The notes under the pieces are model-generated. The model did no database searches, was not told the DNA's origin, and saw only the letters and a list, made by a program, of their open reading frames with translations. Positions 3,734-32,241 of a DNA stretch of 55,265 nt are shown here, in pieces. This DNA comes from Deltaproteobacteria bacterium (GTDB lineage Bacteria; Desulfobacterota; Desulfuromonadia; Desulfuromonadales; BM103), in assembly GCA_024279915.1 (NCBI GenBank), contig JAJRRB010000093.1, positions 1-55,265 of the forward strand, given 5' to 3'. A program made the translations under genes and the position numbers. Each line of letters begins with the position of its first letter. Position 1 is the first letter of the stretch.

Positions 3734-6523
3734 TCATCCAGTGGAAAAGGTCCCAGGCGACTCTTGCGAATCAATTCCTGTATTGACTTTCTGAATTACG
3801 ATTCTGAAACCTAAATCCCAATAAGCGTTGCATGGTGGATCGTCAAGACGGAAACTTGAATGTGAAGCATATTTCTCTCGGCTATACCATGAACTTCCAC
3901 GGACAATACGTTTTTCCAGGCCTTCCAAATTTGTGATTTTGGGGTAGTCAGTCCATGGACAAGAGACACTGTCAATCCACTCCCAGACATTCCCTGCCAT
4001 GTCCTCTGCGCTATTTTGTTTAGCCTTAGAACTGTTATTCAAACCATAGAATCCAACTGGAATGCTCCCAAAACGTACGATTTCAGGTGCACCACTATCA
4101 TTAAATGTTCGAATATGGCAGAACGTGTCATTGCATTCTACTTCTATGGGATTGTTATTATCGCCAGCGTCCCAACCACGGCTGGCCGTCCACTCCCATT
4201 CAATTTCAGATGGTAGTCTGACCACATCTTCTGAATCAATAAGTCCATCTTGAACCATCTTATGATGCAACCATCGACAGAATGCCTGAGCTTCCCACAG
4301 ATTCACTCCTACAACGGGGGCAGTCAGTAAATTGAATCTCTGATCGTCCCAATACAGAGGACGTCTCCGCTCCATAATCCGTCTGGCAATTCTTGCCGCA
4401 TGGTCTTCTGCGTATCGAGCAAACTCTGGCTCCCCAAATTCTTTTACAAAATTATCCTCTTTTTGATTGTCCCACAATGCTACGAGCGTTTTAAGAAAGT
4501 TTGGATCTTGTTGTTGCCAAAGGGTGGCCTCATTGCCTATCCACCATTTTGACTCTTCGTACCCACCGGCGTTGATGAACTCAAGATATTCACAGTTCAT
4601 TACAGGAAAGCGACTTATTTGGAAAGGGGCAACGCTGACATCCAAAGAAGGATTAGACGGTACCTGCTTTTGCTCCTGCATCGGTAGCGGCTCATCAGTG
4701 CCAACCCGGCCGTCACCCCCGGGTACTTCCACCATATGAACCTGAGCGACTATGCGTTTACCATCCGGGGCAAAGAAACGTGGATCTCGTATGCGACTTA
4801 CCGCGCATAAGGCTCTCATTCTCAACGCGAGTGGCAAGTCAATCAATCTAGATATTTCAAAAACTATCTTTGTTGCAGCGGGCCAAAGCCCTGCAAAACC
4901 CTTCGAATTATCGCGATATTCACCACTCAACGCCGAAGTCAGCCCATAGTGCTTTGCTCCGTCGATACCGAACTCCGATAACATTTCACACGCCAAACAT
5001 GCTCCCACCGCAGCCTCTTCCGAAACTTTTGGCTCACCTTGACTACCAGACTCGGGTTTTGCTTGGTTGAGTAGATAGTCGCACATGACAAGCATTTCTG
5101 TTTTTCCCTTTCCTGTCATTTGTGCGATACCTGCAATACACATATACACTTCAGCCCAACTTGATCTAAGGGCCAGCACTTCTCTCTTTGGATATTCGTA
5201 AGTAGCAAGCCAACGTGCCGCAAGATAGCTCTGGAGACTTCTGTGCGCAAATTGGTAGCATTCAGTCCTACTTTGCTGAAGCAAACCTGCAGACGATGTC
5301 CCAACCAAACGATCAATGTAAAGAAGTGTTAGCTCCGTGACATGTCGATCGTCCATATCAAGAATGCGCCTATGTTCAACTTCCTTCTTGAAGTATTTCC
5401 GCGTGTATTCTTCTAGATCTGACATTGACCATCCGCGGTTGCCTTCTTCTGTAGAATTATCGGCGGCAACATGCATGTCAAAAGCGATGTGGCTTGCAAG
5501 ATCCTTTAATGTTCTATTGTCAATTTGGTCAAAATGCTCATCCTCGGACTTGTCCCGCTTCTCGCGTTCGATCAGTATGCAGTCGATCGCATCTCGCAGA
5601 AGCGCTGTTCTCCCAAGAGACCCCTTCAATCGTGCCTGCACGACGATTGCTGCTAGGAGCGGGATTTCAACCAAGGTCTTGAGCTCCTTATGTGAATCTA
5701 TGAGGGCTCTAGTTTTTGCTATATTCTGCCGAACTTTATATTGTTTATTTTCGGCAGCGGCTTCGTGCCATTGCTCAATATATGCATCAAAGTCGTCTTC
5801 AGAGAATCCTGACAGCTCCAGAACGGGCACACCCCTTAATTGACGACGTGGCTCTTCATTGGTGTAGTCGCCGACCCTACATGTTACGGTGACTCGATTA
5901 GGGCTTGCGGTTATAAAAGCCTCAAGCCACCTTTTCAATTCTGGCAAAATGTTCTGATTGACTTCATCGAGGCCATCAAAGAAAAACCAAAGATGGCCAC
6001 GGGTGCTTGCGTCGCAAAGAAAATCAGTCACCTGAGGCCGCTCAGATACTAATGGTGATAAATTTAGTAGATCTCTGATCCCGGTTAAGTTTTTATAGGG
6101 ATTCACTTCTTTTAGCGATATGTGCACTGGTATCCAACCAATGTTGTCATTGCTAGCCTGCACGGCTTTCAATCCAACCAATCGGCGGCATAGCGTTGTC
6201 TTGCCATACCCGGGTCCAGCCACAACTACGCATTTCTTGAACATTTCCATATTTAGAGCATAGTCAACCTGAAGTGACGATTTCTTCTTTAGTATCTCTT
6301 GCTCTTCGGGCGGAGCAGTCATGGAAGTTTGCCCATGGGATAATACACAAACCCTCGGTGGGATCCATACATCCTCAAGACGCAAACGCTCTGCATTAAA
6401 GCCGCGTGGATTTCCGAAAGCTAAGTATTGACTATCTGCAATGACAGCGGATAAATAATCGAATATATCCCCTGTTATGTTGAGCTTTGGGAGGGAACCT
6501 CGCTCAAAGGAGATTGAGTCCAT
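3734..6523 (-). CDS. NACHT NTPase with C-terminal FGE/C-type-lectin-like domain
   Basis: This 929-aa STAND-type NTPase has a P-loop GPGYGKTT at residues 103-110 and a Walker B FFFDGLDE near 180-187, the NACHT signature. A helical and winged-helix region follows to about 590. Residues from about 600 to 915 match a formylglycine-generating-enzyme (sulfatase-modifying) fold: VPGG near the start, LPSEIEWEW, DMAGNVWEWIDS, VRGSSWYS and LGFRIV. Here that fold probably acts as a sensor or binding module. NACHT proteins are known bacterial antiphage ATPases. The effector is not obvious, but the gene starts two bases after its partner, a small membrane protein, which could deliver the killing step. Defence is inferred. 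Confidence 0.8.
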   Translation of the reverse strand: MDSISFERGSLPKLNITGDIFDYLSAVIADSQYLAFGNPRGFNAERLRLEDVWIPPRVCVLSHGQTSMTAPPEEQEILKKKSSLQVDYALNMEMFKKCVVVAGPGYGKTTLCRRLVGLKAVQASNDNIGWIPVHISLKEVNPYKNLTGIRDLLNLSPLVSERPQVTDFLCDASTRGHLWFFFDGLDEVNQNILPELKRWLEAFITASPNRVTVTCRVGDYTNEEPRRQLRGVPVLELSGFSEDDFDAYIEQWHEAAAENKQYKVRQNIAKTRALIDSHKELKTLVEIPLLAAIVVQARLKGSLGRTALLRDAIDCILIEREKRDKSEDEHFDQIDNRTLKDLASHIAFDMHVAADNSTEEGNRGWSMSDLEEYTRKYFKKEVEHRRILDMDDRHVTELTLLYIDRLVGTSSAGLLQQSRTECYQFAHRSLQSYLAARWLATYEYPKREVLALRSSWAEVYMCIAGIAQMTGKGKTEMLVMCDYLLNQAKPESGSQGEPKVSEEAAVGACLACEMLSEFGIDGAKHYGLTSALSGEYRDNSKGFAGLWPAATKIVFEISRLIDLPLALRMRALCAVSRIRDPRFFAPDGKRIVAQVHMVEVPGGDGRVGTDEPLPMQEQKQVPSNPSLDVSVAPFQISRFPVMNCEYLEFINAGGYEESKWWIGNEATLWQQQDPNFLKTLVALWDNQKEDNFVKEFGEPEFARYAEDHAARIARRIMERRRPLYWDDQRFNLLTAPVVGVNLWEAQAFCRWLHHKMVQDGLIDSEDVVRLPSEIEWEWTASRGWDAGDNNNPIEVECNDTFCHIRTFNDSGAPEIVRFGSIPVGFYGLNNSSKAKQNSAEDMAGNVWEWIDSVSCPWTDYPKITNLEGLEKRIVRGSSWYSREKYASHSSFRLDDPPCNAYWDLGFRIVIQKVNTGIDSQESPGTFSTG

Positions 6524-13021: not shown

Positions 13022-13279
13022 GCCCCATGATCTTATGTTCTTAAAACTTACCCTTCATGCATAACCACAAATCCGATTTATGACTACTGCTGAATGATGT
13101 GAATCTGATTGCAGTGATTCCTGTCTGAGCTGTTTAAAACGCCCGTCAAAATCAATCGAAACTCACCATAAAGACAATCTGGGGACAATTCACGTCCCAT
13201 CCCATCCAGCTGTTGCCATGTACCGCAAACAAATCTGCTGAGTCGACCAACTGACTCGATGAAAGGAGGACGTGTAATT

Positions 13280-14473
13280 ATGACTCGTGACAGACCGAAA
13301 CGACCGGTTTGCCGGAAAGTGAAATTTACTGATCGCAAGATTCAGGAATTGGTCAGCAAGCCGCCGAAGAAGGGTGAGTCAGCTATCGAATGGACCTGTC
13401 TTGCAGAAGATAACCTTAAACTCTGTGTCTATCCCTCGGGTAAAGCTTCATGGCGTCAGCGCGGGATGTTGAATGGGAAAAAGGTCTTTATCACCATCGC
13501 ACCTGTGAACGTTATGAACCTTGCGACGATTCGCGAGGTGATTCGCAAAAACAAGGAGCTCATGCTCCAGGGAGTCCATCCCAAGGATTCCGTGAAGGGT
13601 GACGAGTCGCCGACCCTGGCATCATTTATCGAGGCCGACTTCCTTCCCTATGCCCGGAAGAAGTACAAGTCAATCAGGGATGTTGAGAGCAGGTTGACAG
13701 GGAAGATTATTCCGCAGTTTGGTGACTACCGAATAACCGATATCCGAAAGGCCGACATAGTCCGATACCATGAACAGGTCCAGGATGAGGTGAGTAACAT
13801 CACGGCTAATCGGACCCTATCGTTATTGTCGAGAGTCATGAGGAGGGCCGTCGATCTGGAGATCATCGAGCGCAATCCAGCCTCGGGGATCAAGAAGTTT
13901 TACGAGGGAGAGAGTAGGGATAGGTTCCTTAGTGATCTGGAACTGAAGCGGTTCTTAGCGGTCCTTCGTAAGAGACTCGATACACCACAGGGACAGGCGA
14001 TCTTCCTCCTCATATGCCTTGGAACTCGCAAATCTGAGCTCCTTGGCTGTAATTGGTGTGATGTAGATCTTCAAGCTCGTCAGATATATATCCCCGACCC
14101 GAAAAACCGCAAGCCTCGTTTCTTGGCGATCAACAGTCAGGCGTATGAACTGCTTTGCGAGATGGAAAAGAAGAGGTCAGCCTCTCAGTTTCTTTTCCCG
14201 AGTAAATCTGCAAAGGGACATCTCCTTGAAGTGAGAAGGACATTTGCCCGCATTATCAAAGAAGCCGGGATTGACAACTTCAGGGGGCATGATTTACGGA
14301 GGACCAACGCTAGCATTTTGATCAATGGAGGGGCTAGTTTGGCAGAGGTGAAATCGGCATTAGGACACTCAGATGTAAGGTCCACGCTCGTTTACGCGCG
14401 TCTTTCGACTAAGTCCATGGCGAAGACGAGTGAGATCGCTGCCAAGAAGATCGGTGAGGCGATGACGGGTTAG
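13280..14473 (+). CDS. Tyrosine recombinase (integrase 1, intact)
   Basis: This phage-type integrase is about 397 aa from the preferred ATG at 13280; AAAGGAGG stands upstream and an earlier in-frame ATG (13259) overlaps that site. It has an N-terminal DUF4102-like arm-binding region, a SAM-like core-binding domain (about 110-210), and a catalytic domain with the first Arg in CLGTRKSEL, HDLRRTNAS (HxxR), LGHSDVRSTLVYAR (His and nucleophilic Tyr). All catalytic residues are present. It is paralogous to the broken integrase at 16010-17256. It probably carries out site-specific integration at the tRNA-Arg 3' end. Its terminator follows at 14501. Confidence 0.93.
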   Translation: MTRDRPKRPVCRKVKFTDRKIQELVSKPPKKGESAIEWTCLAEDNLKLCVYPSGKASWRQRGMLNGKKVFITIAPVNVMNLATIREVIRKNKELMLQGVHPKDSVKGDESPTLASFIEADFLPYARKKYKSIRDVESRLTGKIIPQFGDYRITDIRKADIVRYHEQVQDEVSNITANRTLSLLSRVMRRAVDLEIIERNPASGIKKFYEGESRDRFLSDLELKRFLAVLRKRLDTPQGQAIFLLICLGTRKSELLGCNWCDVDLQARQIYIPDPKNRKPRFLAINSQAYELLCEMEKKRSASQFLFPSKSAKGHLLEVRRTFARIIKEAGIDNFRGHDLRRTNASILINGGASLAEVKSALGHSDVRSTLVYARLSTKSMAKTSEIAAKKIGEAMTG

Positions 14474-16009: not shown

Positions 16010-17256
16010 ATGGAAATTAAACGCAGAGGGTTTCCTCGCACAAGACTTCGGCATCCAGGTAAAAACCGGAAGGTTAAGTTTACGAAATCAATCATGCCGC
16101 AGTTGGTTGAGATTGTCCGGGCAGGAGGTAAACAGCGCGTCACATTCACCGATTCAATGATGCCTGGCTTGAAAGCTGTCGTGAGCGAGACCGGGGGCAT
16201 CGTCTTCTATCATCAGTGGACGCTGCGATGAGAACTGTGAAGAAAAAGCGCTTCGACAAGTTGGGCCCCTGGCCTGGTCTGTCCATCGAGAAGGTCCGTG
16301 AGTTGGTTATGTCTCGGGTCGGGAAAATCGCTTTGGGTCAGGACCCTTCGATCCCTGATGTCGTGATGTTGACTGTCAGCCTGTTCATCGCTGAAGAGCT
16401 CGACTGGTTACTCGGGCGGTATAAGAAGCCCGCGACCATACTCAGTCTGATCAACTGCTGGCTATTGAAATATTTCGCCGGAGTCAAAGATAAGCCGCTC
16501 GATCAGCTGACGCGCAAAGACGTGATTTGCTTCATTGAAGGGGTTGCATCACAACGCAGCAAGGTGACAGCGAGCCGGTGTCTTTCTCTGCTCAAGGTCA
16601 TCATGGCCCGTGCGGTCGATCTTGAGTATATCAATCGCAATCCCTGCCAAGGCGTCAAGAAATTCCGTGAGCCGGAAAGCCGGACGCGGATTTTTTCTGA
16701 TGACGAGTATGTCAGCTGCGTGAAGTCCGTCATCAGGAACATCGACCATCAGCACTCGAAAATTATCTACTTTTTGCTTCTGATCCCACTGCGATTTCAG
16801 GAAATCGCTTCAATGCAGTGGAGTCGGATTGACCTTGAGAAAGGCACTTACTTCATTCCCGCAGACCTTGCGAAAAATCACCGAGCAAGAACCATCGCTT
16901 TCAGCCCGCCTGCCATTGACCTTTTAACGCAGATGTCAGGTACGCGAGAGCCAGTCGTTGATTGGGTGTTCCCTGCTAATTCAGAATCCGGTCATACGGT
17001 CGACATTAGAGTCCAGTTCAAGAAGATCTTGAAGGAAGCCGGGATCGACAAAAAAACTTTCAGAATTCACGATATTCGCCGTTCGGGGGCTTCTGCATTG
17101 CTGAACGATTTCGACGCTAACCCACTGAAAATTATGGACATTTTAGACCACCGCTCAATGGCCTCGACCATGGTGTATACCCGGTTGTCGGCTAAATCGA
17201 TGGTTGATACCAGCGACCTACTGGCCCACAAATTCACCCAGGCGGTGTCCAAATGA
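16010..17256 (+). pseudogene. Tyrosine recombinase (integrase 2), frameshifted
   Basis: The N-terminal part (16010-16231, about 73 codons) and the rest (16216-17256, frame shifted) together reconstruct one integrase paralogous to integrase 1. The first piece ends at ...FYHQWTLR, the expected arm-domain beta hairpin, and the second resumes at KKKRFDKLGPWPGLSIEKVREL, which is the natural continuation. The catalytic domain keeps LIPLRFQEI (Arg), IHDIRRSGA (HxxR) and LDHRSMASTMVYTR (His, Tyr). The shared block VDLE-I-RNP--G-KKF-E-ESR shows kinship with integrase 1. A frameshift near 16228-16240 breaks it. Whether the 346-aa C-terminal ORF is still made from its internal ATG is unknown. The stop overlaps the polymerase ORF start (ATGA). 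Confidence 0.8.
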
Positions 17257-20200
17257 AATTATTTACCACTATAAGCGCGAAGCTCCTGCTTGGAGCTTCG
17301 CTGATAATCTTACTGGTTGGACTCAGTGCACCGACATGTCTGGGTGGTGAATCTAACCACCTTAAAACTGGAGCTGCGATGGACTCTTTATCACAGGAGC
17401 ATGCCGAGCTTCTCAAAGTCATGCATTTTAAAAACAATGGACGGACAAAATATGAGGGAGTATTGGGATCGTTCATTGATTTTGAGTGGTTCCAATTCGG
17501 CGGTCGCAACGTCCCGCTCTCGATGCAAATCGCTTGTGTCTCGCTTGAGTCGACAACGAATCGTATTTATTACTCCAAGATCGGCGAGCGGCTGAAAAAA
17601 GGTCTTTCGATTGAAGGACATTTGTCATCGGATTCTGATGCGGTCAAAGAACGTTGGACCCTTGAGGTAATCGTCGAGCAGTTGATGCGTCAGAACGACG
17701 GTGGAAAGCTTAAAAAACGAAAGTCCGGGCGTACCCGAGTCATTTTGGTTGCGCACAACACGGTGGCTGAGTGGTCGATGTTGGCTGACCGTGACCAGAA
17801 CCGCATCGTTAAACGCCTGACCGCCATTCGCAAAAGTCCTGTCACGGGCAACCATCCGATCAAGCTGCACAACCGACGAATTGGTAAAGTAGATCTCGAA
17901 ATCTTTGATACGCGACTGCTTTTGCCAGCCGGTCTCCAGAGCCTGGACAAAGCGTCATCTCTCTTTGGCACAGAAGAAAAGAAGCTGGACGTGCCGGAAT
18001 TCTATAAGCGCAATATGCACGGTCTGTTGCGCGATGACCCTGAGTTGTTCGAACGATACGCTCTGCGCGACACCGAAGTGACCGCCAAGCTCTTTTTTAT
18101 GCTTCAAAACAGTTGAACGAGCTGGCCTTTGGGCGGATCGATCGCCCTTTCAAGACGCTGGCGTCAGCGGGTGTAAAAGGATTTTTGGAGAAAAAAAGGT
18201 GGTTCCCGGACTATCAGAATGCGTTGTCAGAAGAACCGTTTGCCGAGGTAATACCGATCATCAAACGGTCCTATCTCGGTGGTCTCAACATGGGCTGCTT
18301 CCGTGGCAATACAGACGATTTTGAGCAGACGCGTGGTTACATCTACGTTGACCTAGACTTCGCCGGTGCCTACCCGAATGGTATGGCTCGGTGCGCGAAG
18401 ATCGATGTTAACGGTGCGGTCGATATCATCCGTGCCGAGTATCAATGGTCGGACTCTATCGAGCAGACCTTGCGGAATGAGAACCTCCCTCCTGACCTGA
18501 TCACCAAAGCCAAATCTGCCGTCGAAAAAGGTCGTGATGCGGTTGAGGAATTACTGCGAGACCTACGCTTGGTCAAAAGGTCCAAAGTTAAAGGTAAAGC
18601 CGTCGCTGGAAGCTGCTACAGAAGGAGCTGCACAAGCAAAAGGTTCAGCGCAATAAAAAGCATGCCGAGATACTAAGTCACACTCTGTTTATTCCTAACA
18701 ATTGGCACCTCGATCGCTGGGTGAAGTTGACCAACCAAGGGCTAGGATACGAGATCCCAGGCTTTGCCAAGGTCCGGTTCATCTCACCGCATGACATGGA
18801 GTATCCCTGTCTGCCGATTAAAAAGCAGCCTTACGGGCTGTGTTATGTCCATGAAGGGGAGACGCTACTACCCGCCGTCGAGCTTGTCCAGGCGGTCAAG
18901 GCCGGGGTGAAGGTTGAGGTGTTGTGGAGTCTTGAGTTGCCAGTCGAGAAAGATGCCGCCGGTCAGCCGAACCTCTACTTTTACGACCATCTGGAATATT
19001 TGGTGTCTCTGCGAGCTGACGCGAAAAAGCTCGCCGAAAACTCTCCTGAGCATGAAGCCAAGCAGCAGATTTTGAAGGAATTCGTCAACGGATTTTACGG
19101 CAAATCCGCTCAGGGTCTCAATTTCCGCCGTATGTTTAATCCTTCAACCGGTGAGTTTTTCGCTCTATCACCTTCCGAAATAACCGAACCGAGTGTCGCT
19201 GCTCTGGTCACCGCCCAGGTACGTGCGGCCCTAGCGGGAACATTGCTGGCTATCGAGGCGTACAACAAGACACGCCCAGGTGAGCGTCCAATCGTCGTGA
19301 TCTCGGCGACGACCGACGGTCTGTTGATTGGTATCCCCTGCGAGCCTGGATATTCGGTAGGGGAAGAATTCTTTGGCAGCTCTGTACTGGAAAAACTGAA
19401 GCAGGGTGAGAAGTTCGAGGTCAATATTGTCGAGATCGATTCATTTTTTAGAGATTACTTCGACATCCCCTCTCCCATTAAGCTCAAGCTGGGTGATCCT
19501 CCCTCTATGAAAAAGGTCGATACCCGGGCATTGCTGAAGCGTTTCGGGCACGAGGCCCTTTTGGATGAGTTTTATAGCTACCCGTCGGTCCAGAATCTTC
19601 GTTTCATGCGCCAGAAACTGACCGGCAAGGACGATTTCTTTGAGGTTAAGCATCTGGCCGACCGGGTCGAGAGCATCAAAACCCGAGGACAGATCGGAAC
19701 CATCAAATACGGAGGGCGCGAATACTGCTCCTTGATCGCCCGCTATGGTCACAAAGTTCCTCTGAGTCTTATCTACGATGATCCCGAGCTGTACAGCGCC
19801 ATTATGAAGGTTGACCGGGACACCGCCGATGCCCAGTGGCTGTTCGAGCGCATCGATCATGCGCTCAATGTGGCTGAGGTTGAAGACTATCCGTTCCTTA
19901 ATCTGACCTCGTTCAAGAAGATTCTGGAAAGTGTCGGCAAAATCGACCTGACCAATCAGGTGCAGATGAAGCGGACCAATTCCGATTGGGACTTCAAGCG
20001 CCGGTTTGTCCGTGACGATAGCGGTAACCTCTCCCCCTTCAGCCTTCCGCATAAGAATATTGCGGCCCTGTTACGCGAACGGCGTCAGGCCGACAACATC
20101 CGTAAGGGTGGTCTATGTGCCACTCCCGAGTTGGTCGAGCAGCGTCTGAATGTCAAGGGACGGGGCATACGGGCTCGCTCGGGTCAAGCGGCGATGCTGA

Positions 20201-21069
20201 CACGTCAGTTTCTGCGTGGGCTTGTCCAGGGAGAGTTTGAGGGAGAGGTGTCATTGACTGAAACTGAGATCGCAAGTCGGATAAATCAGGTATGGGAGGA
20301 GTTTGAAATCAAACCTGAAAAGGTTTGGGGCCGCAACGACGTAAATGCAGCCAAGCGGAAGAAATTTGAGGCCAATGTGCTGATTCATAACCCGGGTCAT
20401 GACTCTCTCTTGAAGCGAACGTGTGATGAGTTTGGGGCAGATATAGATGTTGTCCGACAGAAACTGTTTGCCACAGATGTGGTCGAGAAAAGCACCACGC
20501 ATCTGGCACAGACGGTGGCACAGGCCATCCTCTTCGGTTCCGGGTTTGGTGTTCAACCGTTTGTGGCCCTTCATCGGCAAGGAGCTTTGCCGGGTCGGTC
20601 CGTGTTGGCCGAGAGACTGTATCCGCAGCTAAATGGTGCACCGATGGTTGTGGATTCAGCCTTCCCAGCATCGATTCCGGCAGGGGATCGTCCGATGTTG
20701 CGGCGCTTGTTTGTTCAAGTCGGTTTAAGTGGTGACGAGGCCAAGCAGTGTGCCGAGTGCTTATCCCCGGTGCAGTTACAAAATCGCAAACCCCGGCGCA
20801 ACACAACAGAGAAAAAGTGCCTTGAACAGTTCGTGATCGCCCTGCATCAGCCGGATATCTGTCCGACCGAGGTCAAACCCGGCAAGATCATGAAACGGTT
20901 GAAACGGTTTGGTCTGAGCAAGCATGGGTATTACGCAACCAAGGGCAAGACGCTGGCGGCCCAGTCGCTTAAGGCGACACCTGAGAACCGGAAGCAGATC
21001 GAGCAGATGGCGATGGCTCTGGAAGTCGAGCCAGGTAAGTTCACTCACATTCTTCTGGAGGGAAAATGA
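17253..21069 (+). pseudogene. Family B DNA polymerase, piPolB-like, split into three frames
   Basis: Frame 1 (17253-18116) holds the proofreading exonuclease: IDFEWF (ExoI DxE), AHNTVAEW (ExoII-like) and YALRDTEVT (ExoIII YxxxD). Frame 2 (18113-18676) has polymerase motif A DLDFAGAYP at about 18350. Frame 3 (open from 18598, ends 21069) has motif B KEFVNGFYGKSAQG near 19075, motif C SATTDG near 19309 and KTRG at 19678. As I recall the family literature, TDG in place of DTD and a KTRG motif mark primer-independent PolBs of pipolins. The C-terminal 400 residues are an unrecognised extension. Frame changes fall near 18100 (CAAAACAG) and 18598 (AAAGCCGTCGC), and both look like single-base lesions because the conserved sequence continues at once. 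The first 40 residues of frame 1 look like a signal peptide, so the true start may be the ATG at 17379. Confidence 0.75.
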
Positions 21070-22106
21070 ATATCTATCTGGCAACCGACGATGAGTTTTC
21101 CTGGGTGTTCTTCCGGGCTGACTCATACGGTCTGTTGCGTGGGGATAAACCCTCGTGGGTGAACTTTGAGGAGGTGAGCTTTGATCACAGCGATCGCGAT
21201 TTTCTGAATGCGGCTGCTGTCCTCCATGGGGGAGAGCGTTTGCAACGTGGGGTTGTCAAACGCAAGGTCAAAAAGGGAACACGGAACATTACGAGTCGGA
21301 TCGGTCGATGTGATCGGCTGCTGGGGTTGGCCCGGCATCCAGAGATCATGGGTAGTGAAGACAAAAAGGAGAAAAATGGAATGTTGAAAATTATGCAAAA
21401 GCAGCTTGGCGAGTTGGTAAAAACTGCTCGTGAGCAGATCAATTGGCAAGGTGAGGTACCTTCCCGTTACTCGTACGTGGTGACGCAGGATGTCCTTGAC
21501 GACGCTGAGGACTCGCACTGCGCCGATTACTTCGAGCCGCTTGCAGATCAGCGGTTTTTTGAACAAGATCTGCAAAAAATCGAAGCGGACGTGACAGCGA
21601 GGTATTCCAAGGTCGCACAGAGCACCTTGCAGATTCTCCGGAGAACAAAGACGAGCGAGCATCTGTCGATGATCTCACTGACAGCCGATGAACAAGGGTC
21701 GCTGTATGTGACGCTCGTCGATCCTAAAGGGCATCACCTGAAGGTCGAGGCAAGTCGGTTCGTCGAGATGATTGACAGCCACGACCAGCCACGCCGTCTG
21801 CATGTCTTTCCTCCAAGAGGAAGTCGTCAGCAGGTGCCGTTCGCCTTCAACGACAACAGCGAAGGTGAGATCGTCGGTAAGTTTATGCAGGAGAAGGTGA
21901 AGTTCGACATCGTCTGCTGTCAAACGCAAGGTCAGTACGGCAACGTTAATGACCGGGCGTGGTTTTACGTCGACGTTGAATATCTGCTCTGTTTGTGGGT
22001 CGTGCTCTGTCGTCTGGAGCAGGACAAAGGACGCTACACTCAGATGAAATCAATGGCCGAAGCCACCATCGCGTTCGACCCGTTCGCGGCAGGAGCTTCA
22101 CTGTGA
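21066..22106 (+). CDS. Hypothetical protein downstream of polymerase
   Basis: This 346-aa protein has an ATG that overlaps the polymerase stop (ATGA), so it is translationally coupled to the polymerase. Its middle is basic (RGVVKRKVKKGTRNITSRIGRCDR) with a helical region (KIMQKQLGELVKTAREQ), followed by a beta-rich half (GSLYVTLVDPKGHHLKVEASRFVEMID). There are no catalytic motifs or membrane segments. Position and basic patches suggest a replication accessory or DNA-binding partner of the polymerase; this is inference from synteny. Confidence 0.7.
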   Translation: MNIYLATDDEFSWVFFRADSYGLLRGDKPSWVNFEEVSFDHSDRDFLNAAAVLHGGERLQRGVVKRKVKKGTRNITSRIGRCDRLLGLARHPEIMGSEDKKEKNGMLKIMQKQLGELVKTAREQINWQGEVPSRYSYVVTQDVLDDAEDSHCADYFEPLADQRFFEQDLQKIEADVTARYSKVAQSTLQILRRTKTSEHLSMISLTADEQGSLYVTLVDPKGHHLKVEASRFVEMIDSHDQPRRLHVFPPRGSRQQVPFAFNDNSEGEIVGKFMQEKVKFDIVCCQTQGQYGNVNDRAWFYVDVEYLLCLWVVLCRLEQDKGRYTQMKSMAEATIAFDPFAAGASL

Positions 22107-22129: not shown

Positions 22130-22759
22130 ATGTCCCAAGACACATCAACTGTAGGTAACGTGGTCCCTGATGCGCTGAGTGCGCTTCAGGATCTCTTCTT
22201 CAACGATCTGGCTGAGGATCAACCTGGGTTGACACAAGGTTTGATGAACCTTGCTTGTCTCCCTGAGTTTGATCTGAAAAAAAGTATTCCTGCATCTGTC
22301 CCAGGTCATGGAGAGGTTAAGCGCGGGATTCTCGGCTTCAGGAGAATGGGCGGTCAGATGACTCTCGCCATGGCCTGTGGCACCGCACCGATTCATTATC
22401 AGCCACTCGATAAGTACATTGCGATGGTTGAGGGGATGCACGACGAGCGCAGCGCGAACGTCATCATCCAGAATCATAAAACGGGGGACGATGGGCGCTC
22501 TCAGATCATCGCGCGACTCAATCCGAAGCATTCGGCCATCCATGTGGTCCATGGTGTGGTCGGTCGCGTCATTAAGGAGCCGAGTCACATTCTCACCAAC
22601 GATGTGTACTACATCCCCCGGGGTACGCTGGGGCGTTATTATCTCGCGGCTAAGGCGCAGATTGAAGCGGGGGATCAGCTCGACAGTCTGATCGCAGCTT
22701 ATGATGGTTTTAAGGGGTACTCGATTCCGATTGATCCCTTCAATCCAGTAGGTGTGTAA
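22130..22759 (+). CDS. Hypothetical protein of element core
   Basis: This 209-aa protein has its start at 22130, preceded by AAGGAGG with ideal spacing; longer in-frame starts overlap the upstream gene. It is a soluble alpha/beta protein with KHSAIHVVHGVVGRVI and NDVYYIPRGTLGRYYLAAKAQIE segments. No family is recognised. The next gene begins right after its stop, so the two form one transcript with the polymerase and ParB-like genes. Confidence 0.7.
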   Translation: MSQDTSTVGNVVPDALSALQDLFFNDLAEDQPGLTQGLMNLACLPEFDLKKSIPASVPGHGEVKRGILGFRRMGGQMTLAMACGTAPIHYQPLDKYIAMVEGMHDERSANVIIQNHKTGDDGRSQIIARLNPKHSAIHVVHGVVGRVIKEPSHILTNDVYYIPRGTLGRYYLAAKAQIEAGDQLDSLIAAYDGFKGYSIPIDPFNPVGV

Positions 22760-23200
22760 ATGAGTCGGTCGTACATCAAGATCGATAAACGAGGTAAACA
22801 GCTCGGGCTGGACCTTGTGAATACTGACGGTGACGATTACTTCCTGTACAGCATACCGTTGCTGTCTTTATGGGAGAACCAGGACCGCTATGTTCTGATC
22901 AAGCGTCGCAATCGGGATGTGAGTCAGGCGATTGCCTATCATGCTGGTCAGGTGCTGGGGGCACTTGAACTGGATGGCGATCAAGTAAGGATAGAGGTGT
23001 ACTTCGGCCCTGCCGGAGAGGATATGGAGTACGAAACTGATAGTAAGAAGTTGAAGAAGGTTGTATTCCGGCAGGCGCACATTCTGCCAACAGATGAATT
23101 GGAAGCTGTTGTCGCAGCTTTTGCTGTAAACCGCCGTAACCAGCCTCACTACGATGAGCTGACAACGGTTGGGCGTACGCTGGCCCTGTGTGAAAGGTAA
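22760..23200 (+). CDS. Hypothetical protein of element core
   Basis: This 146-aa protein starts at the base after the upstream TAA, with no spacer. It is charged and soluble with beta-rich halves (QVRIEVYFGPAGEDMEYETDSKKLKKVVFRQ). No domain is recognised. About 200 bases separate it from parB, and that interval includes a GC-rich hairpin, so parB probably has its own promoter or control. Confidence 0.65.
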   Translation: MSRSYIKIDKRGKQLGLDLVNTDGDDYFLYSIPLLSLWENQDRYVLIKRRNRDVSQAIAYHAGQVLGALELDGDQVRIEVYFGPAGEDMEYETDSKKLKKVVFRQAHILPTDELEAVVAAFAVNRRNQPHYDELTTVGRTLALCER

Positions 23201-23406: not shown

Positions 23407-24207
23407 ATGAGTAGTGAAACCAAGAAACATGCTTTCCTCGCCGAGGGTAAGGAACTGGAAAATCGCGAGATGTACAACGTGCCGCTGGAGTCTCTGACCG
23501 CCGATCAGAACCAGCCGCGAAAATACTTTGATGACCAGGCCATGGATGAGTTGGTCAAGTCGATCGAGAAGCACGGGGTCCTGCAGCCGGTGATGTTCCG
23601 CTGTGATGATCAGGAGAATCTGATCGTCATCTCCGGTGAGAGACGCTTCCGCGCGGCTCAACAGGCGAAGATGGAGACGATACCGGCGATCTACAACGAC
23701 GGTGGGAACAATACCGAGATCGCCCTGGTCGAGAACCTTCTGCGTGAGAACCTGAACCCGATCGAAGAGGCCGAGGCGCTGGGTGCGCTGAAGGAGGAGC
23801 AGGGATACAAGAACGTCCAGATCTCGGAGGCCATCGGTAAGGCGGAGTCGACCATTTCGGAGATCTTGTCGCTGAACAAGCTACCTGATGCGATTAAGGA
23901 CGAGTGCCGCCAGAACCCAAACTGCACGCGTCGTGGCCTTGTGGAGATCGCAAAGGCTGATAGTGAAGAGGAGATGCTGAAACTTTTCGAGAAGTATAAG
24001 AGCATGGAGCTGAAGAGCGATGGCATGCGTGCTGGGCGGCAGGAGGCGGGCTCACTGTCAGATGCCTGGAAGAAAAAAGTGGATCGGTTCCGTAATCAGA
24101 TCGAAAAGATCGATTTCTCTGAGTTCGGTGAAGATCGACGGGATGTGGAGACGGCTTTTAAGGGGCTGAAAGTGGTGATTGATGGAGTGCTACCAGTAGC
24201 TGATTAA
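23407..24207 (+). CDS. ParB/Spo0J-like DNA-binding protein
   Basis: This 266-aa protein from ATG 23407 has a ribosome site (GGAGA); the frame is open upstream but without signal. The N-terminal ParB domain has NVPLESLTADQNQPRKYFDD, ELVKSIEKHGVLQPV and the GERRFRA box at residues 78-84. A helix-turn-helix (VQISEAIGKAESTISEILSLNKL) lies at about 135-160, followed by a helical dimerisation tail. No ParA is seen, so it may be a KorB-like regulator, a plasmid-style segregation remnant or a CTPase clamp. Two palindromes CGGCGCGCCG start six bases after its stop and are candidate binding sites. Confidence 0.88.
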   Translation: MSSETKKHAFLAEGKELENREMYNVPLESLTADQNQPRKYFDDQAMDELVKSIEKHGVLQPVMFRCDDQENLIVISGERRFRAAQQAKMETIPAIYNDGGNNTEIALVENLLRENLNPIEEAEALGALKEEQGYKNVQISEAIGKAESTISEILSLNKLPDAIKDECRQNPNCTRRGLVEIAKADSEEEMLKLFEKYKSMELKSDGMRAGRQEAGSLSDAWKKKVDRFRNQIEKIDFSEFGEDRRDVETAFKGLKVVIDGVLPVAD

Positions 24208-25231: not shown

Positions 25232-28200
25232 TTAATTTTCAAACCGCTCTCCCTCTCGTAGGGACCGTTTAATGCTCTGCTCTGCGTGTTCCCTTAAGCT
25301 TTCGTACAATCGATAAGCCGGGGAATATCGCGGAATCTCTTTAAGTAAGGTCTCTGCCTTTTTCTTCAGCTCTATATCTAATGGAAATGGCTCTCCAACC
25401 GTTCCTGAGCGAACGCCTGATATCGCTGAGCCGATTAAAGCACTTATAGCCCCATCGAGTTTCTCTTTACCGCATTGTTGCGCTTTCTCAAGAAATTGCA
25501 TGGTGAAGGATTGATGCTCAAAGATTACGGAAGGGAGCTCATTTAGTATTTGTGAAATAATGTGAATGTCTTCTGAAGAAGCCATTCCCAGCCAGTTTTG
25601 AAGGAAGCTAACTAACTCAGCATCAAAGGGTTTAAACATAGCTTCGAAAAGTTTGGCCGCGTTGTCCATGAACATATAACCTTCTTTCCCTGTCTTCATC
25701 CATTGAGCAACTTGACGAAGGAGAGAGTCGCATTCCGGTGATTCACGGAAACGTAGAGGGACATTGTTGTATGGCCCGTAATTGCATGGGCGGTATTTCC
25801 AGTCTTGTATTTTCTCAGTGTGTTCAACTCTAGCCATGAAGAATGTTGCCGTTCGATTTGCATGGCTTTTTGAGCTTTCGGACAAAAAGGTTTCAACCCA
25901 ATAGCCATCAAGTTCTGACAGCCTCATTAGTTTATTAAGAAAGCAATCAATGTCTTCTTTAGTGAGGGTGTGAAAGGGAATAATTTCACCGTGACAAAAC
26001 AAAGCCAATGTGTCGTCTGCAACACTGCTTGACATCCCAATATCAACCTTTTTTAGTAGGTCAATTGCAAGTCTTTGGTCGTTCTTTGCCAGAACACGCA
26101 CTGCATTAACAGCACTCCTGGCAATCCGTTCGTCACTTGTCATAAGAACGTTCTGTAAAAGTGTGAGGTCCTTAGATCCATAGTCTTCTTTTTTGAAGTT
26201 CAACCGGCTATATGCGTTAGCTACCGCAGCAATAAGGTCAAGAGACTTCGTCTCGATAAAACGGGCTGCGATATCCAACGCGTTGTCGTGATCTTCACTC
26301 AAAAGTTTTGCAAGAGCCATGTCAGCAAACTTCATTGTTCTGGAAGAAGGGTTTTCGATGGCATCTGTGACTGTAGCTTTTGCAATAGAAATATCTGTAT
26401 TTATTAGGTGGCCGTAAAGGGTGAATGGGGATCGGTTCCCATTTCCAAAATTGAGTTCTATGTGAGAAAGAATTTCTTCTAAGAAGACACGTAGATGCTC
26501 GCCGTTGGGGTAGGTGGCAAGGAGATCGGTAGCAAGTGAATCTAGATGGGTATCCCATTCTCTTTGACTACGTTCAAAGTCTTCCCGTTCGCGGAGTCGA
26601 CCATATCCGTCTATCAAAGCCAAGGTAGTACGGAACGTTAGTGAATTAGGGAGTGCTCTGTTGATTCTCTTTGCGATTGGCGTCGTTGTTTTGTTTTTTG
26701 CGAAGTTTGCATGCCATGAAACCGAACGAGTAATTTCGATCAGAACCAGTGGGTCAAGAGTTTCTTCCTGTGTCGCTTGTTCAATATTCTTTAATGTTTT
26801 TACAAAAGCTTTTTCCCAAGATTTGTGATGCTTTGTGTCTCCTGACCTTGAGTAGTATCGGAGGCCTTCACTCAGAAACCGTGCGGCCGAAACTGCGACC
26901 TTCGTTGTAGACGATGAAAGCAATTTTATGGTCGTATCAATGACTTTGTCTCTTAGTGGCGCAACAAACAAATAGGTGACAGGGGCGTTGGTAAACGAAA
27001 AGCTTCGTCCCTCTGATTTCGTGATGCTCACTTCGGTTGCAAGGATGTTCTTCAGTATATCGAAGGGAGTGTAGATGTGGTTCCATGAATCGTCATCCTT
27101 TATAAGCGCGATTGCAAAATCAACTACTGCCTCGTTGTATTCGAACGGCTTGTTTTGCTCTACAGCACACATCTCGGCAAGGACGCGTATTGCATGCTCT
27201 GGATGCTGACTTAGTTGTCTGTTGTCATCCTTCCCGAGCTGCCAGAGTAATTCGCAGGCAGGTCGCAAATGATCAAAATTGTATGCTGCATATTTGATGA
27301 TATGTGGTAGCTGGGAGAGGTAAGAATCTTCTCTCATTAGCTGCTCAGCAAAGGCCAGAGCTCTGTCTGGTTGGTAGTATGCAACGGCGGTAACAGCCCC
27401 TATGTATGGGTCTGCGTATTTAGAGTGTGGTTTTAACCTCTGCCATATGCCATCCATCAGTTTGCTGTTTCTTGGATAGCCATCGGCACGTCGCCAATCG
27501 AGTTTCCCGAGATTAAGCAGAATGTTTTTAATGTGGGTGTCGCTAGCGCTATCGAATACGACTTCTGCATATCCGGTGGATGCACCGTTATGTCCTATGC
27601 ATGAGTCCTCAATGACAAAATCGGCGAGAAGGTCAGGCGATAACCTATATTGCCCGCCACGCTTGAACAGTACGCCCGCGTTTGTGAGAAGAAGAATCAG
27701 TCGGTTCACTTCGTGGGTGCGTATCCCCTCAACTTTATCTACAATTGTGGCAACTGAATTGTCGTCAGGATGAAAAGGCTGAATCAGTGCGAGCACTTTG
27801 AGCAATTTTCGGATAGGCTCTTCGTCACCCTTGCTCCCAATGTCCCCGGCAATAATGTCTCGAAATTTCCCAAAAATGGTGGTGTGGAATTTTTCTTCGT
27901 TCTTCAGGAGTTCTAGGTGGTTGATCTTCTCGGTGGCAACAATCTGTGAACCGATTACGGTTGCAAGTGGGCAGTCTAACGTAAGGCCTGCGATATGTTC
28001 TGCCGCACTTTCAGGGCCATTGAATTCTTTGAGTACGATGGAAGCCAGCTCCGTCGCTTGAACAATAGTAAGTGGATCAAGTTTTATCGTATCAATAGTA
28101 TCCCCGCATAGGGCGAAGCTGCTTGCTTGTGCTTTTATATAGACAAGACCATAGGGGCGGAATACGAGAAGGAGTTTCGCATCGTTAGTGGGCGACGCTA

Positions 28201-29257
28201 CATATTGAAATAGAGGGTGTAGATTGCTCTCATCATGTGCATCGTCTACGACCAGAAGCTTTTTCACTTTACCGAGGTCTTCCAGGCTCTTTTCGGTAAT
28301 TTCATTGCGCGGTGAAAGAAAGCTGATTTGAACTGATTTATTCGCGTCCTGATAAGTTTCAATCGCTTCCTTAAGAACGCGAGACTTCCCTGCTCCGCCC
28401 GCACCCACTAGAAGGATGGCTTGTTTCTTAGTGTCAGATAGGGCTGTGACTACGTCTTGAGGTTCTTGTGTCCTCCCAACAAGATTCCACTTGTGACTGA
28501 ATACGCTTCCTACCGCCATGAATGGGGCAAAGAATTCAGTAGGCGTTTGCCATGGGCCTGCTTCTCTCTCTCCAAGCAACGCAAGGCGTTGCCCCGGAAA
28601 GAAGATGTCAACAAGTTTGATTTGCTCGCTTTTGGTTAGGTTTTGTCTTATTTCGCGAGAGATATCTTCTGTGTCCCAGATTGTCCACGACTGGTGTAGC
28701 CGAATTGCTGTGCGGGCTTGCGGGCTCGCAACTCGTGAGAGAAGCAAAAACTTTTTATCCGCCTCTCTGATGTGTTGTGCTGCTGCCTCGTGGACATCTT
28801 TCGGGCCGAATTGTTGTACGCGTTTGCATTGAAAGGTGTAGACATCTTCGTTTGGAAAGATCGCATCTATGTCGATCCCCTCTTGAGTATGTCCTGTGCC
28901 GCCAGCGCGGTTTACTTCTGCGGTGGGATACCTCTTTGCCAAAAAATAAAAACAAAAGCGCTCAAAACTGTCTGGGTTGAGTGCGCTAACAGGGAAGGGC
29001 TGATCGAAAGGCGATGTGGTTGCCTTGTGGATGTATCCAGCAGCCGATAAGAGCTTGCTGGCGTCGGTATTCAGGGTTGCCGCAATTAATGGTATTTGCT
29101 TATCTCGTGGACGTGAGAGGCCTGACTCCCAGCGGCTAATTGTTTGCTGGGTAGTCTTGAGAAGTTTGGCGAGCTCTAACTGCTTAGTGATCCCAGCTTC
29201 CTGGCGAAGGCCTGTAAGCAAAATTCCAAAATCCTTGTACTGCGCCTTGTCTTTCAT
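25232..29257 (-). CDS. HTH-Mrr-STAND NTPase, Avs-like defence protein
   Basis: This 1341-aa protein starts at 29257 (MKDKAQYKDF, with AAAGGTGG ahead); the frame extends 20 codons upstream without a ribosome site. Domains in order are an XRE-type HTH (about 8-70: LAKLLKTTQQTISRWESGLSRP), a Mrr-type PD-(D/E)XK nuclease (about 90-205, GIDIDA at 127-132 and QCK at 143-145), a STAND NTPase with P-loop GAGGAGKS (285-292) and Walker B LLVVDDAHD (334-342), and about 850 residues of helical repeats as a sensor. Known Avs proteins combine an N-terminal Mrr nuclease, a STAND ATPase and a C-terminal phage-protein sensor. The extra HTH is unusual and could bind its own promoter or DNA. Antiphage function is inferred. 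Confidence 0.85.
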   Translation of the reverse strand: MKDKAQYKDFGILLTGLRQEAGITKQLELAKLLKTTQQTISRWESGLSRPRDKQIPLIAATLNTDASKLLSAAGYIHKATTSPFDQPFPVSALNPDSFERFCFYFLAKRYPTAEVNRAGGTGHTQEGIDIDAIFPNEDVYTFQCKRVQQFGPKDVHEAAAQHIREADKKFLLLSRVASPQARTAIRLHQSWTIWDTEDISREIRQNLTKSEQIKLVDIFFPGQRLALLGEREAGPWQTPTEFFAPFMAVGSVFSHKWNLVGRTQEPQDVVTALSDTKKQAILLVGAGGAGKSRVLKEAIETYQDANKSVQISFLSPRNEITEKSLEDLGKVKKLLVVDDAHDESNLHPLFQYVASPTNDAKLLLVFRPYGLVYIKAQASSFALCGDTIDTIKLDPLTIVQATELASIVLKEFNGPESAAEHIAGLTLDCPLATVIGSQIVATEKINHLELLKNEEKFHTTIFGKFRDIIAGDIGSKGDEEPIRKLLKVLALIQPFHPDDNSVATIVDKVEGIRTHEVNRLILLLTNAGVLFKRGGQYRLSPDLLADFVIEDSCIGHNGASTGYAEVVFDSASDTHIKNILLNLGKLDWRRADGYPRNSKLMDGIWQRLKPHSKYADPYIGAVTAVAYYQPDRALAFAEQLMREDSYLSQLPHIIKYAAYNFDHLRPACELLWQLGKDDNRQLSQHPEHAIRVLAEMCAVEQNKPFEYNEAVVDFAIALIKDDDSWNHIYTPFDILKNILATEVSITKSEGRSFSFTNAPVTYLFVAPLRDKVIDTTIKLLSSSTTKVAVSAARFLSEGLRYYSRSGDTKHHKSWEKAFVKTLKNIEQATQEETLDPLVLIEITRSVSWHANFAKNKTTTPIAKRINRALPNSLTFRTTLALIDGYGRLREREDFERSQREWDTHLDSLATDLLATYPNGEHLRVFLEEILSHIELNFGNGNRSPFTLYGHLINTDISIAKATVTDAIENPSSRTMKFADMALAKLLSEDHDNALDIAARFIETKSLDLIAAVANAYSRLNFKKEDYGSKDLTLLQNVLMTSDERIARSAVNAVRVLAKNDQRLAIDLLKKVDIGMSSSVADDTLALFCHGEIIPFHTLTKEDIDCFLNKLMRLSELDGYWVETFLSESSKSHANRTATFFMARVEHTEKIQDWKYRPCNYGPYNNVPLRFRESPECDSLLRQVAQWMKTGKEGYMFMDNAAKLFEAMFKPFDAELVSFLQNWLGMASSEDIHIISQILNELPSVIFEHQSFTMQFLEKAQQCGKEKLDGAISALIGSAISGVRSGTVGEPFPLDIELKKKAETLLKEIPRYSPAYRLYESLREHAEQSIKRSLREGERFEN

Positions 29258-29425
29258 ACACACCACCTTTGTTCGAGAATTGAAACACATTATATGTGTG
29301 CGAAAACTTATTGTCAAGCTGAAAGCTAAGAAGTTCTTTGATCAATATTAAATGTGGCGATGGAGATTGATGAAGCGTCCTGTGAAATATTGGGTTGGGG
29401 TCTCCTCGTCGGAAGGGGCTTAACG

Positions 29426-30803: not shown

Positions 30804-31154
30804 GTTTTTAATGAAATGAAAGAAGAAATCAAAATAAATTATAGATATCAAAAACAAAAGGAGCTTCACGAAGAGACAAAGAAATATAAAATTTTTTATC
30901 TCGATCTTAACTTTTGGATATGGCTCAGTAACGTTCACTTTGGTCGTAATAGCGATTCCGAACACTGTTAGCCTCTATGAGGTGATCATTGAGCTAGTTG
31001 AAGCAGAAATCGTTATATGCCCTCTCAGCCCAATTGTGTTCGACGAACTGTTAAAGCAAGCTGGTGAGCCTGAGTTCCTGAAGTTAGTAGCGTTTATAGA
31101 GAAAATGTCCCAAAATGTCATTACGGTGACTGAGTCTCTCGGGTCTTCTTATCT

Positions 31155-31170
31155 TCCGCGGCGCGCCATA
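31155..31170 (+). repeat. attR: 16-bp copy of tRNA-Arg 3' end
   Basis: TCCGCGGCGCGCCATA is an exact match to 1611-1626. There is no tRNA upstream of this copy, so it is the element's right junction. A terminator follows immediately, as expected downstream of the original tRNA-Arg. Confidence 0.75.
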
Positions 31171-31175
31171 CAAAT

Positions 31176-31211
31176 AAAGGCCTCAGCACTTTTCAGTGTT
31201 GAGGCCTTTTT
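31176..31211 (+). terminator. Terminator after attR (likely the original tRNA-Arg terminator)
   Basis: AAAGGCCTCAGCACT pairs with AGTGTTGAGGCCTTT (one G-T wobble) across TTTC, followed by TTTTGT. After element excision it would follow the tRNA directly. Confidence 0.85.
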
Positions 31212-31242: not shown

Positions 31243-32241
31243 TTAGTTTATTGAGTTGCTGAGTGCAATGCCGAGATCACTAAAAATAAAATTCAGTTCT
31301 TCTCTGAGACTTTCAAATGGCCAATTTCTATCTACCTCATGCGCAGCATTAGCGACTAAATAATACAGTATGAGGACCGTTGGCTGTCGAAAAAGGAACA
31401 GCGTCCCACGTCGTTCTCGAATACGCGTAGTTATGAACGCTCTTGATGAAATGAAACTGTTGAGGTCTTGCTGGTCTAGCTCCTGGTATAGACTGCGGTA
31501 TGCATCAAGAATTGAGTAATTAAGATCGATGTCTGGTTCTGTCGCCACATCCGCAAAGGTGATGCTATATAAACCAGTTAAATAATCACTCCACGAGTTC
31601 CGGAGTTGATTTGCCTTTTTAAGTTCTTCGATAGTCTGGCAAAACAGGTCATCGGTTGTTTCCATTAATGCCATGCTTCTGGCAACTAGTCTTTCGGATT
31701 TTTTGGGAACAACTCCGGAGGGCTTATAAATATTATCATGAACTATTTCTGCGTACGCATGCTGAAGGAGAGTGCGTATCTGAATTTCACACGCGGTTTT
31801 GTCGGGAACCACAACTTCTCCACAGTTAATATCTCCGTTAGCTCGAAGTACATAGTGGATTGACTGATAGTCGAAAAGGGTAGGTGCATTCTCGATCTCT
31901 TCATAGAAATCTTTGTCAAGCGAGGCTGACCATAATGTAGAGTTCAGAATTACTCGAGACACCAACTCAAGGTCATCACGAATCAACACAACAAATCTTG
32001 CCCCGACTAAATCTGTCATTTCTTGGGCTGGGTCGGCGTATCTTTTGCGCGCAAGTTTGCCAATTGCAGATTCAATGGTCTTTGCACGAGGAGTCGACTC
32101 AATTTTTAAGAACGAAGAAAAACGTTTTTCTCCAAGCTCACGTTCAAGGGCAGACTTAACCTCTGTGACAATACGCTCTCCCCACGCTTTAAGCGCAGGC
32201 TGTATGTCTTCCAGATATGTTTGAAAAGATTCGAAACTCAT
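31243..32241 (-). CDS. RelA/SpoT-domain protein (nucleotide pyrophosphokinase-like)
   Basis: This 332-aa protein has a RelA_SpoT synthetase domain in its first 170 residues: STPRAKTIESAIGKLARK (the R-x-K-S-Sxx-K type entry), MTDLVGARFVVLI (D-x-G-R), FDYQSIHYVLR (the substrate Tyr and SIH) and CEIQIRTLLQHAYAEIVHD (E-x-Q-x-R-T). The C-terminal half is a helical, unrecognised domain. No hydrolase HD domain is present. Such stand-alone synthetases make (p)ppGpp or (p)ppApp, or modify tRNA. Its ATG overlaps the end of the NdpA-like gene by four bases. A toxin or abortive-infection effector role, as in toxSAS/CapRel systems, is an inference. Confidence 0.85.
   Translation of the reverse strand: MSFESFQTYLEDIQPALKAWGERIVTEVKSALERELGEKRFSSFLKIESTPRAKTIESAIGKLARKRYADPAQEMTDLVGARFVVLIRDDLELVSRVILNSTLWSASLDKDFYEEIENAPTLFDYQSIHYVLRANGDINCGEVVVPDKTACEIQIRTLLQHAYAEIVHDNIYKPSGVVPKKSERLVARSMALMETTDDLFCQTIEELKKANQLRNSWSDYLTGLYSITFADVATEPDIDLNYSILDAYRSLYQELDQQDLNSFISSRAFITTRIRERRGTLFLFRQPTVLILYYLVANAAHEVDRNWPFESLREELNFIFSDLGIALSNSIN

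Follow-up and report, generated by a model that had tools for sequence, protein, structure and literature searches.

A probable pipolin-like integrative element with a fragmented piPolB gene at a tRNA-Arg gene of a Desulfuromonadia genome

Pipolins are a known group of mobile elements which carry a gene for a primer-independent family B DNA polymerase (piPolB). In the available text of PMC9710591, plasmids of S. epidermidis and L. fermentum are counted among the pipolins, the function of piPolB is said not to be clear yet, and a figure gives Alpha- and Gammaproteobacteria, fungi, Actinobacteria and Firmicutes as example hosts. According to the accessible part of PMC7544198, the first Asp of motif C is missing from piPolBs, which are active all the same and which fall into one broad cluster with protein-primed PolBs (pPolB). 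Here, we analyzed a stretch of 55,265 nucleotides (nt), contig JAJRRB010000093.1 of a Deltaproteobacteria bacterium, the whole of which is called the window in the following. We consider it likely that the window, from a host of the class Desulfuromonadia, contains an integrative element of the pipolin kind, 29.5 kb long (approx. 1625–31180) and inserted at a tRNA-Arg 3′ end, with a life cycle based on a self-primed piPolB. A pipolin-like element had been proposed in an earlier note on this DNA; the placement of the polymerase, a pair of attachment (att) repeats and the recombinases support this proposal; among its weaker points is the polymerase gene of the window itself, which is broken.

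Relatives of the polymerase were searched at several taxonomic levels. Among 22 genomes (the window's own and its family), one extra copy was found in the same genome, on contig C57 (36% identity), and one in the genome G019 (34%). A scan of GTDB species genomes gave 37 confirmed loci, five of which form a close group with the window: that of G019 again (L009; protein 100% identical to one on VAUL01000001.1, a 'Deltaproteobacteria' metagenome-assembled genome), and those of Geobacter sp. H2geo (L010), Deltaproteobacteria BP5.bin86 (L011), Geomonas propionica Red259 (L012) and Geobacteraceae E14_bin-1988 (L013). Each of these five PolBs is encoded by a single unbroken open reading frame (ORF) of 1199–1276 amino acids (aa). 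An order-wide search (136 genomes) added G026, whose PolB is split over two ORFs. Geomonas belongs to the class Desulfuromonadia, as the window genome does, and PolB-like matches were obtained in 11 of 277 genomes of this class. Four of the matching genomes, all from a single genus (G225, G229, G243, G250), carry weaker, more distant PolB-like genes with long open frames, without a match to X1, the gene following PolB in the window (see below).

The presumed integration target is a tRNA-Arg(acg) gene at 1548–1624, predicted by ARAGORN and matching the Rfam tRNA family with 59.9 bits; this gene lies on the plus strand, as do the window's att repeats, recombinase genes, PolB fragments, X1–X3 and ParB gene described below. 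Its 3′ end is overlapped by the proximal att repeat (1595–1636), and a distal repeat at 31139–31180 is identical in 35 of 42 positions (blastn E-value of 2.6e-7). Since the best match in each of eight mononucleotide shuffles reached 23–24 identities, the tRNA-based att pair suggested before is real. The sequence immediately after the distal repeat also follows such repeats in two congeners (L067, L073), and in at least one congener (L067), where the surroundings of tRNA-Arg are the same, a second copy of the repeat lies 1.6 kb further along. Within the element, both tyrosine recombinases announced in the earlier note were recovered as Pfam Phage_integrase proteins. The first (13259–14473; E-value of 3.6e-26) additionally has an arm-binding domain (Arm-DNA-bind_3, E-value of 4e-6), and the second (16216–17256; E-value of 7.7e-21) shows the R and HxxR motifs.

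tRNA-derived repeats flank four of the five elements tested for them, i.e., those of the window, H2geo, G. propionica and G026, though not that of G019; L011 and L013 were outside this set. The repeat in Geobacter H2geo, 88 nt derived from tRNA-Arg(cct) (85% identity; 26183–26270 and 49251–49338), encloses PolB (32128–35655) and a recombinase gene (26485–27615). The end of a tRNA-Gly(ccc) gene in G. propionica occurs again at 325404–325490 (90%) and 386131–386180 (50/50 positions), with PolB (348402–352166) in between, and in G026 approx. 180 nt including an entire tRNA-Glu (46848–47028 and 90557–90736, 99–100% identity) enclose PolB. On contig C57, the tRNA end found in the window recurs at 33954–34015 (82%), and no partner repeat was seen on this contig. 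As a separate observation, the terminal 141 bases of the window (55125–55265) match, in reversed orientation and without a mismatch, the end of a further contig from this genome, C65 (L072:17660–17800). A copy of the tRNA-Arg 3′ end is present on C65 too, so this tRNA may harbor a series of adjacent elements.

The kinship of the polymerase was assessed using profiles and trees. A piPolB profile was made by us from 22 piPolB-like rows outside the Desulfuromonadia group, with E-values calculated for a nominal 100,000 sequences; the profiles for comparison were small (four protein-primed rows and two RNA-primed rows, namely E. coli Pol II and a partial T4 gp43), and the E. coli reference piPolB P0DPS1 (UniProt) was left out of the comparison. 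A distant DNA search for the E. coli reference, with a Rhodocyclaceae stretch as query, gave no match. Against the 22-row profile, the five intact relatives scored 374, 371, 324, 322 and 305 bits, the main piece of the C57 polymerase 237 bits and the main piece of the window polymerase 160 bits. The protein-primed profile yielded at most 19.5 bits within the group and 8.9 bits for the main piece of the window, and none of the group's rows scored with the two-row RNA-primed profile. ExplorePipolin, as presented in the available text of PMC9710591, accepts a piPolB at a profile E-value of 1e-50; with our own profile, E-values were 6e-90 to 6e-111 for the five intact relatives and 2.7e-46 for the third window fragment taken alone. 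An unrooted tree was computed from 312 columns and 35 rows under the models LG and Q.pfam, taking in 21 of the 37 GTDB loci (5 of the group and 16 others; the remaining 16 were dropped as redundant or short) and leaving aside G026, being in two pieces. The seven Desulfuromonadia sequences formed a clade with 100/100 support under both models, and the split of the clade side from pPolB plus RNA-primed PolB (rPolB) received 96/96 (LG) and 94.8/98 (Q.pfam). A further tree aimed at the exonuclease domain held 809 columns, reaching beyond that domain, and is, therefore, not counted as independent. Thus, the profile and tree analysis suggested in the earlier note groups the polymerase with piPolB, apart from protein- and RNA-primed enzymes. 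A best match to a phage or protein-primed PolB, which would have spoken against the proposal, was not obtained by sequence, given the 8.9 versus 160 bits and a tblastn search of 50,697 phage records with the main PolB piece that returned nothing at an E-value of 0.01. Viral contigs searched with the window PolB and a five-row alignment gave pattern matches, none of which was confirmed as a relative, and a sequence search of the PDB found no chain close to a piPolB. The window PolB pieces remained below the Pfam cut-off, and of three relatives scanned (P0001, P0002, P0007) only the G019 protein passed, barely (26.1 bits, cut-off 25.8 bits).

All motif strings reported for the window polymerase were located in its translations, i.e., IDFEWF and YALRD of the exonuclease, DLDFAGAYP (motif A), KEFVNGFYG (motif B), TTDG (motif C) and KTRG at nt 19678. 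Positions conserved in at least 90% of 25 aligned rows are, in L009 numbering, D40/E42, Y214/D218, D313/D315 and K538/N542/Y545-G546-K547. Motif C reads TTDG in the clade and in the other aligned piPolB-like rows except for a Fusobacterium plasmid enzyme (VTDG); elsewhere, it reads CDTDS in phi29 and PRD1, ETDG in Toil and ATDG in WheeHeim. KTRG is regarded as a piPolB motif. It is present in six of the seven clade rows (KARG in L009; KSRG in G026, outside the tree) and, with TTDG as in the clade, in the S. epidermidis plasmid enzyme (pSE-12228-03). The plasmids pSE-12228-03 and pLME300 we take to be the S. epidermidis and L. fermentum pipolin plasmids, respectively. Outside the clade, KTRG is seen in only 3 of 22 piPolB-like rows, R-[TA]-R-[GA] in 15 (RTRG in 11 of them) and neither motif in 4. 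In addition, KTRG occurs in Toil (L047:2323–4113) and KSRG in WheeHeim (L079:1670–3715), both of them tectivirus enzymes which presumably are protein-primed, and both without DTDS. Since these two carry similar letters, KTRG and an altered motif C are not exclusive to piPolB and cannot serve as the diagnostic hallmarks they were held to be; judged from these alignments, KTRG is a weak marker. Elsewhere, on a Pseudosulfitobacter plasmid (L007:3818–9362), an IS66-type element interrupts a piPolB-like gene that has both KTRG and TTDG; 30 records of this genus match, one of which was inspected.

Downstream of PolB, a small cassette of conserved genes was found. The gene predicted to overlap the polymerase at 21066 was confirmed: X1 (346 aa, 21066–22106) overlaps the PolB stop and is preceded by GGAGGG. 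It is followed by X2 (22130–22759, its start moved to an ATG with AAGGAGG upstream) and X3 (146 aa, 22760–23200), which abuts X2. The ribosome sites in front of X1 and X2 are strong. X1 and X2 come after PolB at all eight loci (window, C57, L009–L013 and G026) and X3 at seven, being absent from the order in C57. At an E-value of 0.001, X1 was detected in 7 of the 277 genomes of the class at 8 places, every one at these PolB loci; a TAG counted within two of these matches is the terminal codon of X1. When profiles of X1, X2 and X3 were compared with the ORFs of 42 loci, nothing better than an E-value of 0.67 was found outside the clade; 34 of these are piPolB-like loci from outside the clade, for which the flanks covered did not exceed 10 kb and were far shorter in some cases. 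In Pfam, X1 and X3 had no match at an E-value of 1, and X2 had one at 0.11, below the cut-off. A predicted structure of X1 (predicted local distance difference test, pLDDT, 77.2; predicted template modelling score, pTM, 0.79) gave no fold match at an E-value of 0.001, the best ones having E-values of 0.31 in the PDB and of 0.017 (probability 0.12) in the viral library; matches to PUR-type and guide-RNA-binding folds were too weak for use. Further downstream, a ParB-type partition protein is encoded at 23407–24207 (listed ORF start 23308; Pfam ParB_N, E-value of 6.7e-24), and ParB relatives are located close to PolB in the window, C57, L012 and L013.

Past KTRG, the window polymerase continues for 459 residues, compared with 465–509 in the six other clade rows and 218–325 in 18 other rows with a motif of this kind (one of the 18, L019, was measured from a neighboring false match, leaving the range unaffected). 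The C-terminal extension of about 400 aa described as unusual is, therefore, approximately 150–200 aa longer than in rows outside the clade and typical within its own clade. The unbroken L009 protein was modelled from 25 rows (mean pLDDT 82.9, pTM 0.76), and the model consists of helices plus loops beyond approximately residue 855. By fold, in contrast to sequence, the nearest solved structure is phi29 polymerase (E-value of 5.1e-12, template modelling score 0.64 by target, 12% identity), followed by archaeal and eukaryotic PolBs. This similarity might indicate that the enzyme is protein-primed and belongs to a linear plasmid or a phage-like element, with X1 or X2 as the terminal protein supplying the priming hydroxyl, and two further observations agree with it: a terminal protein gene adjoins the polymerase gene in phi29 and PRD1, as X1 does here, and both Toil and WheeHeim show K-x-R-G along with an altered motif C. 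We nevertheless regard this explanation as quite improbable, given that clade members reach 160–374 bits in the piPolB profile versus 19.5 at most in the protein-primed one, that the phage records contain no match to the main piece, and that recombinases and tRNA repeats point to a circular, integrating form. Moreover, X1 is without a significant match in both fold libraries, and no terminal protein was recognized among the window genes scanned.

The polymerase had been described as extending over 17253–21069; one continuous frame is not borne out, as the gene consists of three ORFs in three frames (17253–18116, 18113–18676 and 18721–21069) with at least two frame changes. At the first, ORFs 1 and 2 overlap by a few bases at a stretch conserved among the relatives; at the second (approx. 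18566–18608), homology stops in one frame and resumes in the next. Since L010 and L011 align to ORF 1 from M43 (17379), with GGAG upstream, the gene is more likely to start at 17379 than at 17253. Accordingly delimited, fragment 1 (17379–18116) comprises the 3′–5′ exonuclease domain with DFE and YALRD (profile E-value of 2.2e-24; 38–41% identity to the matching part of five relatives, 35% to L009), fragment 2 (18113–18676) has motif A (profile E-value of 9e-5), and fragment 3 (18598–21069, open from 18598 with the first listed start codon at 18721) contains motifs B and C, KTRG and the C-terminal region and shows 36% identity to the C57 copy. Elsewhere in the window, long ORFs of 1361, 1145 and 929 aa run without interruption. 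The contig thus shows no obvious overall tendency to indels, and we favor lesions that are real and recent over a general fault of sequencing. The frame changes most likely mark the window copy as a recent pseudogene, now unable to replicate itself; the polymerase is probably inactive and the copy decayed.

Overall, PolB is interrupted at three of the eight loci (window, C57 and G026), at differing places. In C57 (L004:7380–7640), an in-frame TAG just past motif A is directly followed by an ATG with a strong ribosome site (AGAGGAGGGTTAG-ATG). Pyrrolysine read-through of this TAG found no support, as PylD, the sole pyrrolysine gene tested, reached 19.5–20.3 bits (cut-off 150). Together with the two ORFs of G026, this arrangement could be taken as a sign that the pieces are separate subunits of a deliberately split polymerase. 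However, the first break in the window falls within a stretch conserved among relatives, fragments 2 and 3 lack an upstream ribosome site (by eye), the break positions differ among the three cases and five relatives are unbroken, so that we judge a split enzyme very improbable.

Taken together, a piPolB gene is present on an integrated element, broken in the window and unbroken at five related loci, and the repeats, the recombinases, the kinship of the polymerase and the gene order PolB-X1-X2(-X3) can be read from the sequences. From this we infer how a pipolin-kind element with an intact polymerase would work: a tyrosine recombinase would excise it between the two tRNA-derived repeats, and piPolB, a proofreading (3′–5′) enzyme whose motif C lacks the first Asp, would copy the excised form from self-made primers, primer independence being assumed here. 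X1–X3 may help in this copying and ParB may stabilize the element, which a recombinase would finally put back in.

Several results speak against such a life cycle. Judging from the sequence, neither copy of the genome is plainly functional, since the window PolB consists of three pieces and the C57 PolB of two. An empty site was looked for and not found, and G019 had no tRNA repeat within the 80 kb examined. The 22-row piPolB profile also matches WheeHeim, Toil and PRD1 at 47–57 bits, and a three-row profile of plasmid piPolBs separates the window piece (38.8 bits, E-value of 1.2e-9) by a small margin from WheeHeim (25.9 bits) and Toil (25.5 bits), the two enzymes with a K-x-R-G string and no DTDS. 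Several deeper branches among the piPolB-like groups, and with them the order within piPolB, are weakly supported in the tree, and since it is unrooted as well, 'piPolB' may be a paraphyletic set. Furthermore, genes for a Toprim/zinc primase (Zn_Ribbon_Prim and Toprim_3, E-values of 4.1e-13 and 7.9e-15) and a D5-type helicase (D5_N) lie directly before PolB in G019, with overlapping ends (L005:10257–12940), and G026 carries a D5_N helicase gene near PolB. Because of these neighbors, at least one of the elements might prime via a primase, and exactly in G019 and G026, KTRG is replaced by KARG and KSRG. A PolB of piPolB ancestry acting today alongside a primase and helicase, encoded by either the element or the host, as part of an RNA-primed replisome would account for this; no primase-type Pfam match was obtained in the eight genes scanned upstream of PolB in L010–L013 or among the window genes scanned (part of the element's genes), and for the group as a whole we find this explanation unlikely. 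The self-primed pipolin-kind element is, thus, the reading we prefer.

Two further large genes within the element may have a role in defense: a NACHT protein with a sulfatase-modifying-factor domain (929 aa, 3734–6523) and a helix-turn-helix protein (1361 aa, 25232–29317) which matches STAND-like NTPases weakly; neither had a strong PADLOC match. Just beyond the distal att repeat, a Wadjet-type defense operon is located at 34467–40917, with JetA, JetC and JetD detected by PADLOC (E-values of 4e-153, 0 and 2.5e-69, respectively).

In relation to known pipolins, the hosts, the C-terminal region and the X1–X3 cassette appear to be what is new here, and a known group of mobile elements is now placed in Geobacter-like hosts, where it has been little described. 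A literature search for piPolB in combination with Deltaproteobacteria gave no match; as most closed journals were outside its coverage, priority is not claimed, and the host range of piPolB is widened as far as could be judged. With X1 and X2 beside PolB at all eight loci, X1–X3 are concrete candidates for accessory replication factors, and with Geomonas propionica Red259 there is a named strain carrying an unbroken PolB copy of the clade. More tentatively, and with some doubt on our part, the loci might represent a separate Desulfuromonadia lineage of self-replicating, tRNA-integrating elements in which the long helical C-terminal part of PolB and X1–X3 make up a compact self-priming replisome.

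Among the described systems, casposons resemble the element as self-synthesizing elements with a PolB (available text of PMC9710591), and they differ in that tyrosine recombinases are found here and no Cas1 among the window genes scanned. The PolB_SITDG group likewise has the first Asp of motif C replaced; by its description in the accessible part of PMC7544198, it is found in cyanobacteria and algae and is distant from the main PolB group. Protein-primed PolBs (phi29, PRD1, tectiviruses) share the overall fold and, in Toil and WheeHeim, an altered motif C with K-x-R-G, whereas phi29 and PRD1 have CDTDS, scores with the protein-primed profile are low, and a terminal protein gene was not recognized here. 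With pipolins (e.g., the S. epidermidis and L. fermentum plasmids or the E. coli tRNA-Leu elements), the locus has in common a PolB with exonuclease and TTDG and, as described for integrated forms in the available texts of PMC7385651 and PMC9710591, recombinases and tRNA-associated repeats. It is distinguished from them by X1-X2-X3, not found in the available stretches of the 34 other piPolB-like loci, by its Desulfuromonadia hosts, by the longer C-terminal region of the polymerase and by the other tRNA targets used here.

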